This document shows, one piece after another, positions 1,481 through 4,750 of a stretch of DNA of 7,184 nt. Source of the DNA: an uncultured Collinsella sp. (lineage in GTDB: Bacteria; Actinomycetota; Coriobacteriia; Coriobacteriales; Coriobacteriaceae); assembly GCA_902495955.1 (NCBI GenBank), contig CABUZE010000039.1:1-7184 (forward strand). The letters run 5' to 3'. Position 1 is the stretch's first letter. Each line of letters opens with the position of its first letter. Both the position numbers and the translations under genes were made by a program. The notes beneath the pieces are model-generated. The model saw only the letters and a program-made list of their open reading frames with translations, ran no database searches and was not told the DNA's origin.

Positions 1481-3262
1481 ATGCTGCTTACGCAAACGAC
1501 AACGCCCGAGGACGTCAAGGCTCTCGACCGCGCCGAGCTTCCGCTGCTCTGCGGCGAGATCCGCCACGCCATCCTCGAAAGCTCCGCCGCCGTCGGCGGG
1601 CACGTTGCCCCCAACTTGGGCGTCGTTGAGCTTACGGTTGCGCTTCATCGCGTGTTTAACTCCCCCATCGACAAGATTGTCTTTGACGTTTCGCACCAGA
1701 CCTACGCCCACAAGGCGCTGACGGGGCGCGCGTACACTTATATCGATCCGGAGCGTTATGGTGAGGCTTCTGGCTTTGCCAATCCCGACGAGTCCGAGCA
1801 CGACCTGTTTGCCATGGGCCACACCTCCACATCGGTGAGCCTGGGCTGCGGCCTGGCGCATGCTCGTGACCTGGCGGGCGACACGTATAACGTCATTACC
1901 GTTATTGGCGACGGCTCGCTTTCGGGCGGCCTGGCGTTCGAGGGCCTCAACAATGCCGCCGAGCTCGACAGCAACTTGATCATCATCGTCAACGATAACG
2001 ACCAGTCCATTGCCGAGAACCATGGTGGCCTGTATCGCAATCTGGCCGAGCTGCGCGCCAGCAACGGCGCCTGCGAGCGCAACGTTTTCCGCGCGATGGG
2101 GCTCGACTACCGCTATCTGGACGCCGGTAACGATGTGTTGGCCCTCGTCGACGCGCTGCAGGAGCTGCGCGACATCGACCACCCCATCGTGCTGCACGTC
2201 TCGACCGCCAAGGGCAAGGGCTTTGAGCCAGCCCAAAACGACCCCGAGCGCTGGCATCACGTAGGCCCCTTTGACATGGCGACCGGCCGCAAGCTCTGCC
2301 CGGGCCATCCGAGCGAGCCCGCGCCGCGCACCTATGCCGATATTACGGGCGAGGCGCTCGGCGCCGCCATCGAGCGCGATCCGCAGGTCGTGGGCATCAC
2401 GGCCGCCACGCCCTACATCATGGGCTTTACACCCGAGCTTCGCGCTGCCGCCGGCAAACAGTTCGTCGATGTGGGCATTGCCGAGGAGCACGCCGTAACT
2501 TTTGCCACCGCGCTTGCGCGCTCGGGCGCCAAGCCAGTCTTTGGTGTGTACGGCACGTTTTTGCAGCGCGCCTACGACGAGCTGTGGCACGACCTGTGCC
2601 TCAACGATGCCCCCGCAACCATCTTGGTGTTTGGCGCGTCGATCTTTGGCACCACATCCGAGACGCACCTCTCGTTCTTCGATATTTCCATGCTGGGCGC
2701 TCTTCCCAACATGCGCTACCTAGCGCCGGCCTGCATGGAGGAATATCTGTCCATGCTGAGCTGGTCGCTCGACCATCGCGAGCATCCCGTGGCGATCCGC
2801 GTACCGGGCATCGGCCTGGTAAGCCGCCCCGACCTTGCGCCCGCCGAAGACACCGACTACAGCGCCGTTCGCTACAACGTGGTGCGTCAGGGCCGCGACG
2901 TTGCCGTGCTCGCGCTTGGCGATTTCTTTGAGCTGGGTGAGCGCGTGGCAAACCGTCTGACTGCCGAGTACGGCATCGAGGCCACGCTCGTCAACCCGCG
3001 CTTTGCAACCGAGCTCGACCGCGAGTTCCTCGACAGTCTTGCCGCCGAGCATCGCGTTGTCGTCACCCTCGAGGACGGCATCTTGGACGGCGGCTGGGGC
3101 GAGCGCGTGGCATGCTATCTGGCATGCACGCCGTTGCGCACGCGCACCTTTGGCATCGCCAAGGGCTTTCCCGACCGCTACGATCCCAACGAACTGCTCG
3201 CGCAGAACGGCATGACGGTCGAGAACATGGCCGCCGAAGCCGTAAGGCTACTCAACGAGTAA
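1481..3262 (+). CDS. dxs: 1-deoxy-D-xylulose-5-phosphate synthase, short divergent type
   Basis: DXS condenses pyruvate with glyceraldehyde 3-phosphate, using thiamine diphosphate, to make DXP. DXP enters the MEP isoprenoid pathway and also feeds thiamine and pyridoxal synthesis. This cytosolic protein has 593 residues; typical DXS has about 620. It shows GGH (His41), the SHQ segment (His72; usually GHQ), GHTSTSVSL (113-121), the ThDP-binding GDG (143-145) with VNDND (170-174), WHHVGPFD (258-265), the ThDP-activating Glu335 in IAEEHAVTFA, and YGTFLQRAYDE (357-367). A transketolase C-terminal domain follows from about 460. By eye against the E. coli enzyme, His49, His80, His299, Glu370, Tyr392, Arg398, His431 and Arg478 have counterparts, but Asp427 aligns to Thr392 (motif TTSETHLSF instead of the usual ADGQTHQG type). 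It may therefore be a paralogue with altered substrate use. GGAG at 1465-1468 precedes the ATG. It is monocistronic, with a terminator straight after it. Confidence 0.82.
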   Translation: MLLTQTTTPEDVKALDRAELPLLCGEIRHAILESSAAVGGHVAPNLGVVELTVALHRVFNSPIDKIVFDVSHQTYAHKALTGRAYTYIDPERYGEASGFANPDESEHDLFAMGHTSTSVSLGCGLAHARDLAGDTYNVITVIGDGSLSGGLAFEGLNNAAELDSNLIIIVNDNDQSIAENHGGLYRNLAELRASNGACERNVFRAMGLDYRYLDAGNDVLALVDALQELRDIDHPIVLHVSTAKGKGFEPAQNDPERWHHVGPFDMATGRKLCPGHPSEPAPRTYADITGEALGAAIERDPQVVGITAATPYIMGFTPELRAAAGKQFVDVGIAEEHAVTFATALARSGAKPVFGVYGTFLQRAYDELWHDLCLNDAPATILVFGASIFGTTSETHLSFFDISMLGALPNMRYLAPACMEEYLSMLSWSLDHREHPVAIRVPGIGLVSRPDLAPAEDTDYSAVRYNVVRQGRDVAVLALGDFFELGERVANRLTAEYGIEATLVNPRFATELDREFLDSLAAEHRVVVTLEDGILDGGWGERVACYLACTPLRTRTFGIAKGFPDRYDPNELLAQNGMTVENMAAEAVRLLNE

Positions 3263-3263
3263 G

Positions 3264-3304
3264 AAAACCTCCGCAAGGAAAGCATCCCTGCGGAGGTTTT
3301 TATT
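3264..3304 (+). terminator. Rho-independent terminator of dxs
   Basis: AAAACCTCCGCA (3264-3275) pairs perfectly with TGCGGAGGTTTT (3289-3300). The 12-bp stem has a 13-nt loop, and TTTTTATTTT follows on the plus strand. It begins 2 nt after the dxs stop codon. The A tract on the left arm makes it plausibly bidirectional. Confidence 0.92.
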
Positions 3305-3319
3305 TTCCCAACTCAATTA

Positions 3320-3374
3320 TCTCGATCTGTAACATCTAGGGCCCGAATTCCCGTCTAACTGTTACAGATCTAGA
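3320..3374. repeat. Inverted-repeat unit 1 of the array
   Basis: Arms 3320-3334 and 3360-3374 pair at 14 of 15 positions; the mismatch is C3323 against T3371. The 25-nt loop contains GAATTCCC and GGGCCC. Confidence 0.85.
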
Positions 3375-3398
3375 CAAGACGTCTTAGTCCCTGACCTT

Positions 3399-3457
3399 TG
3401 TCTCAATCTGTAACAGATAGAGACCTTTTGTCCGTCCAGATGTTACAGATCGAGACA
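3399..3457. repeat. Inverted-repeat unit 2 of the array
   Basis: The 15-nt arms 3401-3415 and 3441-3455 pair at 14 of 15 positions (A3405 against C3451 mismatched). Two more outer pairs (3399-3400 with 3456-3457) give a 17-bp stem. The loop is 25 nt. This is the longest stem of the three. Confidence 0.85.
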
Positions 3458-3480
3458 TTCGAATTCCCCTGAAGAGAAAA

Positions 3481-3535
3481 TCTCGATCTGTAACAGTTAG
3501 AACCCATTTCCTCGTCTACCTGTTACTGATTGAGA
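3481..3535. repeat. Inverted-repeat unit 3 of the array
   Basis: Arms 3481-3495 and 3521-3535 pair at 13 of 15 positions, plus a G3485-T3531 wobble; T3489 faces T3527. Inner bases GTTAGA (3496-3501) partly pair with TCTACC (3515-3520), lengthening the stem. The space between the arms is again 25 nt. Confidence 0.82.
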
Positions 3536-3604
3536 CAAAACAGCGAGGCGGGCCGTCCGAAAAGCACTATCTCAGCAGCAACAACCGACGTTTGTCCAGA
3601 TAAA

Positions 3605-3639
3605 ACCTGCCAAAATAAACCTGTCCCTTTTTGGTAGGT
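3605..3639. repeat. 11-bp hairpin of possible REP type
   Basis: ACCTGCCAAAA (3605-3615) pairs with TTTTGGTAGGT (3629-3639) through 11 bp including one G-T, around a 13-nt loop containing ACCTGTCCC. On the plus strand no T tract follows. On the minus strand TTTTA follows the stem, so it could act as a weak terminator in that direction. The rest of 3536-3681 holds nothing else I can name. Together with the array and promoter, this accounts for the 492-nt gene-free gap 3263-3754. Confidence 0.5.
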
Positions 3640-3643
3640 GGAA

Positions 3644-3658
3644 TTACCCATAAGGTAA
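3644..3658. promoter_or_regulatory. small dyad upstream of the ABC operon promoter
   Basis: TTACC (3644-3648) and GGTAA (3654-3658) form a perfect 5-bp inverted repeat around CATAA. It lies 23 nt upstream of the -35 box, a plausible activator or repressor half-site arrangement. It is short enough to be chance. Confidence 0.25.
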
Positions 3659-3681
3659 GTATGTTTCTGAGTTATTTCGTG

Positions 3682-3711
3682 TTGACCCTTTTGAGCGCGA
3701 TAGGGTATAAC
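3682..3711 (+). promoter_or_regulatory. sigma-A-type promoter of the amino-acid ABC operon
   Basis: TTGACC (3682-3687) and TATAAC (3706-3711) are separated by 18 nt. Each differs from the housekeeping consensus by one base. The transcription start would fall near 3718, giving a leader of about 37 nt before the ATG at 3755. AAAGGTG at 3741-3747 serves as the ribosome binding site. Confidence 0.8.
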
Positions 3712-3754
3712 TCTACTCAACCGCTAGGGATTTTATTGAGAAAGGTGTTCTACC

Positions 3755-4750
3755 ATGAGCAAGAACCTCTCCCAGCAGGTCGTTCTCGCCCGCCGCGGCT
3801 TCGTTGCCGCCACCTTCGCAACCGTCGCCGGCCTTGGTCTTGCCGGCTGCTCCGACACCAGCGCCGAGGCCGACAAGGGTTCCGCCGCCGGCTCTTCCAA
3901 GAGCTCCGAGGATACCGAAGTTTCCACCACGCTCGACGCTAAGGCATTCGACAAGCTCGTCGACAACGGCCCCAAAGCCGACGACGATGCCATCGCCGCC
4001 AGCACCTGGGCCACGGCCGTCAAGGACGCCGGCGTCTTTAAGATCGGCGGCGTTCAGACCTCTACGCTTTTCTCCCTCCTCAACGAGAAAGACGGTCAGA
4101 CCCGCGGCTTCGATGCCGGCATCGCGCAGCTCCTGTCCAACTACATTCTGTTCGAGAACAAGGTCGAGATCACCCAGGTGACCTCGGACACTCGCGAGTC
4201 CGTCCTGCAAAATGGCCAGGTCGACGCCGTCTTTGCCACCTACACCATCACCGACGAGCGCAAGAAGCTTGTCTCCTTTGCCGGTCCCTACTACTACACC
4301 CAGCAGGCCATCCTGGTGCTCGCCGATAACGACGACATTAAGAGCGTCGACGCCCTGGCCGACAAGAACGTCGCCGTCCAGTCCGGCTCCAACGGCCCCG
4401 CCATCCTGGAGGAGTTCGCTCCCAAGGCCAGCCAGCAGGAGTTCAAGACCGACGAGGAAGCCCGTCAGGCACTCCAGCAGGGTCGCGTTGACGCCTATGT
4501 CATCGATAACAATATGCAGCAGAGCGCCCTGGTCCGCGAGCCCGGTAAGTATAAGATCGCCGGCAAGCCCTTCGGCAGCAAGGAGCCCTATGGCATCGGC
4601 CTGCCGCTCGATTCCGACGGTGTCGCCTTTGTCAACGACTTCCTTAAGAAGATCGAGGACGACGGCACCTGGACCGAACTGTGGCAGATCTGCATCGGCG
4701 ACCGCACGGGCGACACCAACGTTCCCGAGCTGCCCGAGATCGGCGCCTAG
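3755..4750 (+). CDS. Amino-acid ABC transporter substrate-binding lipoprotein (GluB-like)
   Basis: This 331-residue protein captures an amino acid outside the membrane and delivers it to the permease pair encoded downstream. The N-terminus ALARRGF-type region (12-16) has a twin-arginine-like pair, then a hydrophobic stretch and a lipobox LAGC with Cys32 as the lipid-anchored residue. A Ser/Ala/acidic linker runs to about 60. A family 3 solute-binding domain (SBP_bac_3) spans about 93-311. It includes GFDAGIAQLL (118-127), NGQVDAVFATYTITDERKK (153-171), FAGPYYYT (175-182) and AYVIDNN (247-253). By analogy with HisJ, Arg169 should hold the ligand alpha-carboxylate and Asp251 the amino group. 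The ATYTITDER segment and the operon parts resemble glutamate-binding GluB, but side-chain specificity cannot be fixed from sequence. The usual GxDxD pattern is GFDAG here. It is first in the operon, with its own promoter and a partial terminator after it. Confidence 0.9.
   Translation: MSKNLSQQVVLARRGFVAATFATVAGLGLAGCSDTSAEADKGSAAGSSKSSEDTEVSTTLDAKAFDKLVDNGPKADDDAIAASTWATAVKDAGVFKIGGVQTSTLFSLLNEKDGQTRGFDAGIAQLLSNYILFENKVEITQVTSDTRESVLQNGQVDAVFATYTITDERKKLVSFAGPYYYTQQAILVLADNDDIKSVDALADKNVAVQSGSNGPAILEEFAPKASQQEFKTDEEARQALQQGRVDAYVIDNNMQQSALVREPGKYKIAGKPFGSKEPYGIGLPLDSDGVAFVNDFLKKIEDDGTWTELWQICIGDRTGDTNVPELPEIGA

Follow-up and report, generated by a model that had tools for sequence, protein, structure and literature searches.

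Six near-identical 15-mers in alternating orientation occupy positions 3320 to 3535 of a 7,184-nt stretch of DNA from an uncultured Collinsella sp. (the whole stretch is called the window here), and they do so at steps of 40 or 41 nt. Such a row could be conserved because its arms fold into hairpins, in RNA or in single-stranded DNA, or because they are sites on double-stranded DNA. Which of these does the array represent, and what would read it?

Geometry and distribution of the repeat units

The arms start at 3320 (+), 3360 (-), 3401 (+), 3441 (-), 3481 (+), and 3521 (-), with spacings of 40, 41, 40, 40, and 40 nt, and differ from TCTCGATCTGTAACA at 0, 1, 1, 0, 0, and 2 positions, respectively. 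At up to 3 mismatches to TCTCGATCTGTAACA the window holds 7 matches, the seventh (3409 to 3423) overlapping the third arm, against 0.09 expected; none of 200 shuffles reached 7. Together the arms form three units. Unit 1 (3320 to 3374) consists of a plus arm (3320 to 3334), a spacer (3335 to 3359), and a minus arm (3360 to 3374). It is separated by a 26-nt linker (3375 to 3400) from unit 2 (3401 to 3455), with arms at 3401 to 3415 (+) and 3441 to 3455 (-) around a spacer at 3416 to 3440. A 25-nt linker (3456 to 3480) leads to unit 3 (3481 to 3535), whose arms (3481 to 3495, +, and 3521 to 3535, -, the latter with two mismatches) enclose the spacer 3496 to 3520. Profile scores of the three units are 83.1, 83.1, and 76.6, with 14, 14, and 13 of 15 arm pairs and 4, 3, and 5 of 12 inner pairs. 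All three within-pair gaps are 25 nt, and the spacers are pairwise identical at 13 to 15 of 25 positions. The alternating 15-mers and the equal gaps around differing spacers given in the preliminary description are thus confirmed.

Upstream lies a plus-strand gene for a 1-deoxy-D-xylulose-5-phosphate synthase-like protein of 593 amino acids (1481 to 3262; Pfam DXP_synthase_N, Transket_pyr, and Transketolase_C). Between this gene and the array, repeat detection and a T run in the sequence mark an inverted repeat with terminal T run on the plus strand (3264 to 3300), which is likely the terminator of the gene; an automated terminator scan of window positions 3200 to 3800 called none. On the other side, 220 nt past the array end, starts the plus-strand gene for the solute-binding protein of an amino-acid-type ABC transporter (3755 to 4750; Pfam SBP_bac_3), followed by two permease genes (BPD_transp_1 twice) and an ATPase gene (ABC_tran). 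The solute-binding protein is 99% identical to its counterpart in genome G007, and, judged by sequence, these neighbors are Collinsella-like. In G007, an iron-containing alcohol dehydrogenase gene (G007:C1:1320312-1321514), absent from the window, lies between the array and the solute-binding protein gene.

The geometry extends far beyond this locus. A contig search for ATCTGTAACA-N15..40-TGTTACAGAT returned at least 120 stretches, and among the matches listed 112 were from Collinsella or Coriobacteriaceae and 8 were unrelated. With gaps of 15 to 40 permitted, the gap was 25 in 239 of the 241 exact Collinsella instances among the matches listed, the remaining two having gaps of 24 and 26; the 8 non-Collinsella matches listed had gaps of 16, 36, 16, 16, 23, 27, 24, and 28, none of them 25. 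When arms with up to 3 mismatches were compared across 141 loci and the window, plus/minus neighbors lay 40 nt apart, start to start, in 343 of 349 cases, a count that leaves out 17 overlapping matches at 8 nt and comes from partly orthologous, hence non-independent, loci. Minus/plus neighbors in the same set lay 40 (129 cases), 41 (93), 39 (8), or 38 (1) nt apart, that is, 40 or 41 in 222 of 231, and 18 same-strand neighbors, mostly at 32 nt, are part of overlapping matches. The within-pair gap is therefore fixed, whereas the gap between pairs has about one base of play. Arrays comprise 1 to 8 units, mostly with an 80/81-nt period (steps between unit starts of 79 in 7 cases, 80 in 151, 81 in 109, and about double in 4). 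These counts bear out the proposals that selection acts on geometry while the spacers diverge and that the sites stand nearly four helical turns apart. The array is not a CRISPR, as had been stated: the repeats alternate in orientation, and no Cas-type family was found among 7 window and 28 neighbor proteins.

An order-wide search of 395 genomes with a slightly looser pattern gave 25 positives, 22 with 19 to 52 units and 3 with one, and 370 genomes with none. The exact unit is present in 23 of 65 genomes of the family to which G001 belongs, at 17 to 43 copies in 22 and as a single copy in one. With up to 2 mismatches allowed, G001 itself yields 53 + 53 arms and the reversed control 2 + 1. In the 2.3-Mb genome G007 the profile finds 44 units, which fall into 19 clusters that include one low-scoring remnant. 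The units are a dispersed intergenic family of one Collinsella clade, with a sharp clade boundary among the 395 genomes searched, and the outcome that would have reduced them to a local duplication, their occurrence only here, did not arise. We call the clade the "C. aerofaciens group"; its carriers are C. aerofaciens strains, Collinsella sp. 4_8_47FAA, TF06-26, BG-O-102, and WCA1-178-WT-3, and Collinsella bins. Two of the single copies are likely contamination or transfer: L314 (genome G244) is 99.4% identical to C. aerofaciens contig L103 over its 1753 nt, and L313 (G041) is 93 to 96% identical to carriers over 263 nt from the unit onwards, with no match before the unit. The third (G042) gave no match under the stricter pattern. 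Among viral contigs, 21 stretches matched, with paired arms at up to 2 mismatches in L002 only. At L302, one of 8 loci examined from non-carriers, the orthologous position has an inverted repeat of 15/25/15, which was considered as the same geometry with other arms. It was rejected, being a longer stem that matches once in its own genome and has a single, unrelated match in the remaining 394.

Pairing, constraint, and curvature within the unit

The consensus of 345 distinct units, orthologues counted, reads WWW-R-TCTCRATCTGTAACA-kcTAG-n-SSSS-n-WWW-n-SSSS-y-CTA-sm-TGTTACAGATYGAGA-Y-WWW. In a profile scan most units score 55 to 85, and nothing scored 0 or above in five mononucleotide shuffles of 299 kb. 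The letters of the spacer diverge while its weak/strong pattern and a central A-tract are retained: AAA or TTT occurs at positions 26 to 30 in 73% of units, versus 6% in shuffled spacers. Measured outwards from the dyad, where A/T is found, G/C lies at about 5 bp and further A/T at about 9.5 and 30 bp. Within arrays, the orientation of this core in neighboring units is random (52 same and 50 different in 60 arrays).

Among 822 close unit pairs, defined by spacers that differ at no more than 4 sites, arm sites differ at 2.0% (positions 4, 5, 51, and 52 left out), spacer sites at 8.6%, position 5 at 32%, and position 4 at 17%; because the pairs were chosen by similar spacers and the units recognized via their arms, the contrast among arm positions is safer than that of arm versus spacer. 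By this comparison of sequences the arms are under constraint. Position 5, the freest-varying arm base and faster than the spacer, alternates between A and G, which makes or breaks a GATC.

Would the arms and spacers be kept as hairpins, as had been suggested? In a set of 88 non-redundant units, chosen so that any two spacers had more than 7 mismatches whichever way they were oriented, the two variable arm pairs, 4/52 and 5/51, are paired at chance frequency. Watson-Crick pairs at the 12 inner positions are depleted (3.72 versus 4.79 expected; standard deviation, 0.17; 0 of 2000 shuffles as low), partly owing to the oriented core with its T-tract on one strand, and the depletion has the same direction in all 345 units. 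Folded as a single strand, the window array far exceeds shuffles (z of -9.7 and -8.3), which follows from its being an inverted repeat. Since the arms do not covary and pairing in the spacer is depleted, the hairpin is not the conserved thing, and hairpins in RNA or single-stranded DNA are rejected as the explanation.

The idea of an mRNA-end element is weakened along with it. Hairpins that stabilize or process mRNA 3' ends would suit the strong predicted folds and the closeness of arrays to gene 3' ends, with a median of 95 nt over 46 distances in the set of one array per locus. However, an exact 25-nt loop would be unnecessary to such an element, covariation is absent and pairing depleted, and Rfam at gathering scores gave no match in the window. 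A terminator-like hairpin moreover already precedes the array at 22 of 41 array-facing gene ends, compared with 48 of 150 control ends and 10 of 150 shuffled ones at unmatched interval lengths. We regard this as the most remote of the explanations weighed here.

Intrinsic bending by the spacer was also considered and rejected on the strength of a curvature model. In a wedge model, the predicted bend of the spacers is not above that of shuffled spacers (33.1 versus 34.4 degrees); the modeled bend of the unit is, on comparison of means, slightly larger than that of other G007 intergenic 63-mers (30.3) or random ones (27.1).

Placement, turnover, and candidate partners

None of 163 distinct arrays lies inside a called gene, in line with the intergenic, BIME-like arrays that had been envisaged; genes were called with a self-written codon-usage caller, which missed some, e.g., one open reading frame (ORF) starting a few nucleotides from a unit. 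By their flanks, 51 of the 163 arrays are convergent, 32 divergent, 49 tandem, and 31 not assigned; with one array per orthologous group (n = 60), the figures are 17, 10, 12, and 21. Among G007 intergenic gaps of at least 100 nt, arrays occupy 7 of 149 convergent, 5 of 201 divergent, and 5 of 566 tandem ones (Fisher test, P = 0.005 for convergent versus tandem and P = 0.14 for divergent versus tandem). The neighbors of the G007 arrays share no pathway (28 of 34 distinct neighbors scanned, 26 with a family) and include EF-Tu, glucosamine-synthase and glycogen-phosphorylase types, glycosidases, kinases, transporters, and a peptidase.

Conserved 15-bp sites at a fixed spacing, some of them between divergent genes, could be operator clusters of a single clade-specific transcription regulator. 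The 28 scanned neighbors, however, lack a common function, and the arrays keep at least 93 nt from called start codons (median, 200 nt; 32 distances, one array per locus, with the caller that missed some genes). This makes a regulator of that kind quite unlikely.

G007 has two stretches without arrays, of 0.62 and 0.58 Mb. Two such gaps have a probability of 0.0016 under random intergenic placement, or 0.011 if close clusters are merged, and two quarter-genome stretches of this kind are odd for a general nucleoid element. One extends from 0.47 to 1.05 Mb, with the GC-skew maximum at 0.64 Mb inside it, and the other from 2.05 Mb through the record start to 0.36 Mb.

Arrays seem to have grown and shrunk by complete 80-nt units and to have exchanged complete spacers, with recombination between arms as the probable route. 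At the window locus, an array stands at the same place in 12 other loci, 11 of them with three units and one (L101) with two, a sequence difference that fits the loss of one 80-nt period. Unit 3 of this locus carries one of two unrelated spacers depending on the strain, while the flanks still align. For orthologous arrays of equal unit number, 311 pairwise, non-independent spacer comparisons were alike and 87 showed replacement; 151 array pairs whose unit numbers differed were excluded. In locus L034, two adjacent units reappear in a second array about 2 kb away. The spacers of G007 include no near-identical copies among 946 pairs, the closest differing at 5 of 25 positions, but 7 pairs differ at 6 positions or fewer, versus about 0.5 expected, and some half-spacers recur between loci. 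Spacer inversion was rejected: both orientations were apparent at first but were confounded by locus orientation, and none was inverted once the flanks were oriented. Inversion of the linker fits 2 of 227 equal-length linker comparisons, both involving L025. Two apparently empty sites (L153 and L150) are not empty, one holding a unit with a 26-nt gap and the other half a unit. A Mutator-type transposase gene (G007:C1:1828658-1830154, L253) has a low-scoring remnant of a unit on one side and a single arm on the other, an arrangement resembling that of an insertion sequence that jumped into an array.

Genes of the Y1 family (PF01797, which covers IS200-type as well as RAYT proteins) are found in 53 of the 65 family genomes, in all 23 with the exact unit and in 30 of the 42 without. 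Neither of the two Y1 loci of G007 has an arm within about 1 kb on each side; the nearest units are more than 160 kb off, and both genes sit in an array-free stretch. A REP-associated tyrosine transposase, the partner suggested earlier, is therefore not supported. A GGGGACAGAC-type repeat flanks one of the two genes. Related to it is a second repeat motif, CCTGTCCC, which adjoins the array in the window (3620 to 3627) as well as several orthologous arrays; G007 carries it 59 times on one strand and 62 times on the other. The CCTGTCCC/GGGGACAGAC repeat may be the true REP family of Collinsella.

REPINs (the GI doublets of Pseudomonas fluorescens and others) have much in common with the units: two inverted, conserved sequences of about 16 nt flanking a less conserved spacer whose length is set, in dispersed, extragenic positions, a layout given in excerpts of PMC8049555 and PMC3116915. 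Inverted REP-like ends around diverse spacers could thus have been spread by a RAYT or a similar protein acting on a single-stranded hairpin, with the arrays as by-products. The number of units in G007, the Y1 genes in every exact-unit genome, the recurring half-spacers with their excess of similar pairs, and the repeated two-unit block of L034 would all agree with this. However, REPIN ends are 71 or 110 bp apart, compared with 40 bp here, and the Collinsella units, unlike REPINs, stand mostly in tandem arrays. Compensatory changes, common in REPINs (PMC3116915, in part), keep the pairing of their hairpins, whereas the Collinsella spacer keeps its length and weak/strong pattern and is depleted of pairing. 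The G007 Y1 genes lack arms beside them and one has the other repeat instead, so that a RAYT flanked by the unit is missing there, and even the closest G007 spacers retain their five differences. We consider a REPIN-type origin unlikely.

Other candidate partners fared no better. The HU/IHF family (PF00216) was detected in 0 of the 65 family genomes, with 9 of 14 control genomes positive, and ParB in 64 of 65; none of Y1, HU/IHF, and ParB separates carriers from non-carriers. A DUF559-like ORF of 364 amino acids (L154:11075-12169; L144:9743-10837; weak DUF559 similarity, with an E value of 0.005 that does not reach the cut-off) has arrays on both sides, as if these were exchange points for it. 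At 84% identity or more it occurs in 19 of 22 carriers, being in pieces or cut by contig ends in G028, G037, and G039, and it was rejected as an obligate partner because it is absent from G006, G009, and G010. No candidate was thus found among the Y1, HU/IHF, and ParB families and the array-bracketed ORF.

Known repeat systems and a predicted architectural protein

BIMEs of Escherichia coli and other bacteria resemble the units in being extragenic, alternating, regularly spaced, and often located at the ends of transcription units. They differ in consisting of self-folding palindromes of 20 to 40 nt, compared with 15-nt arms and a 25-nt spacer in Collinsella. BIMEs of E. coli are bound by IHF and Pol I. 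The GTAG and CGTC tags of REP sequences (PMC3733652, in part) are not consistently present: immediately ahead of the unit, 18% of units have C at position -1 and 62% have G at position 0, making CGTC at most occasional. Two further differences from BIMEs are that no Y1 gene adjoins the repeat in G007 and that pairing is not conserved. The Collinsella units are best read as BIME-like in placement and not as REPINs by test. None of the titles and abstract openings listed in literature searches on Collinsella repeats describes the unit, which is no proof of novelty given that most subscription papers lie outside that coverage. The main text of a REP survey (PMC12306157) mentions neither Collinsella nor Coriobacteri, and a set of 250 palindromic candidate RNAs from human microbiomes (PMC8040213, in part) could include the unit.

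BIMEs are also associated with DNA gyrase in E. coli (PMC6379681 and PMC2817692, excerpts). The gyrase motif of E. coli spans 130 bp, over which phased G/C content forms a symmetric pattern, and gyrase sites are enriched in BIME-2 and downstream of highly transcribed operons (PMC6379681, excerpt). The arrays could accordingly be gyrase loading sites as in BIME-2, the arms helping to place the wrap, and the symmetric A/T-G/C variation of the unit around its dyad and its location at transcription-unit boundaries would suit such a role. Against this, the gyrase motif is degenerate, whereas the arms are sharply conserved 15-mers found in one clade. Gyrase is, to our knowledge, universal. The weak/strong pattern within the unit recalls the phasing of about 130 bp, but arms and linker centers are out of phase: A/T sits at several phases within the arms, and a strict 10-bp phase would place A/T at the linker center, which is rich in G/C. 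Together with the modeled bend, which is not above that of shuffled spacers, this renders gyrase loading very unlikely.

The site sets of matS, Noc, and SlmA likewise comprise tens of dispersed copies of a sharp site per chromosome. Those sites are single palindromes, whereas the Collinsella sites are paired at a fixed gap and stand in arrays.

A fixed gap with free letters, a positioned A-tract, an unpaired spacer, constrained arms, and boundary placement together suggest that a protein spanning both arms reads the unit as double-stranded DNA. The array is one of many intergenic rows, in the C. aerofaciens group, of mirror-image 15-bp sites that are paired across a constant 25-bp gap. We infer that each pair is bound as double-stranded DNA by a predicted architectural protein, a reading that we hold to be plausible if a little short of probable. 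The predicted protein would bend or clamp the 25-bp gap, and one dimer (or two subunits) would take both arms. The A-tract at the dyad, the G/C about 5 bp off, and the T-A steps about 9.5 bp off might be read by shape. A step of 40/41 bp, about four turns near 10 bp per turn, would put all arms on one face of the helix. By analogy with BIMEs and gyrase, the rows may serve as topological or nucleoid anchors where transcription units meet. Several observations count against this reading: the modeled bend is no larger than in shuffled spacers, arms and linker centers depart from a strict 10-bp A/T phase, two large stretches of G007 lack arrays, and neither the Y1, HU/IHF, and ParB families nor the array-bracketed ORF supplied a partner.

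A bolder version, possible but doubtful, is that the array is a code for a new architectural protein. Docking sites at 40 bp, a shape-coded A-tract dyad, and stacking at 80/81 bp would then let the protein assemble at operon boundaries into a regular filament or wrap along one face, and the family concerned is without detectable HU/IHF.

For bacterial intergenic palindromes, the ideas of hairpin formation and of paired-site geometry usually go together. The two can be separated here because pairing in the spacer is depleted while the gap keeps its length to the base. Given some 44 units in the 2.3 Mb of G007 and a sharp clade boundary, a direct search for the partner protein is feasible. If the predicted binding is true, these arrays would add a sequence-addressed DNA-organizing system in a family in which HU/IHF went undetected.
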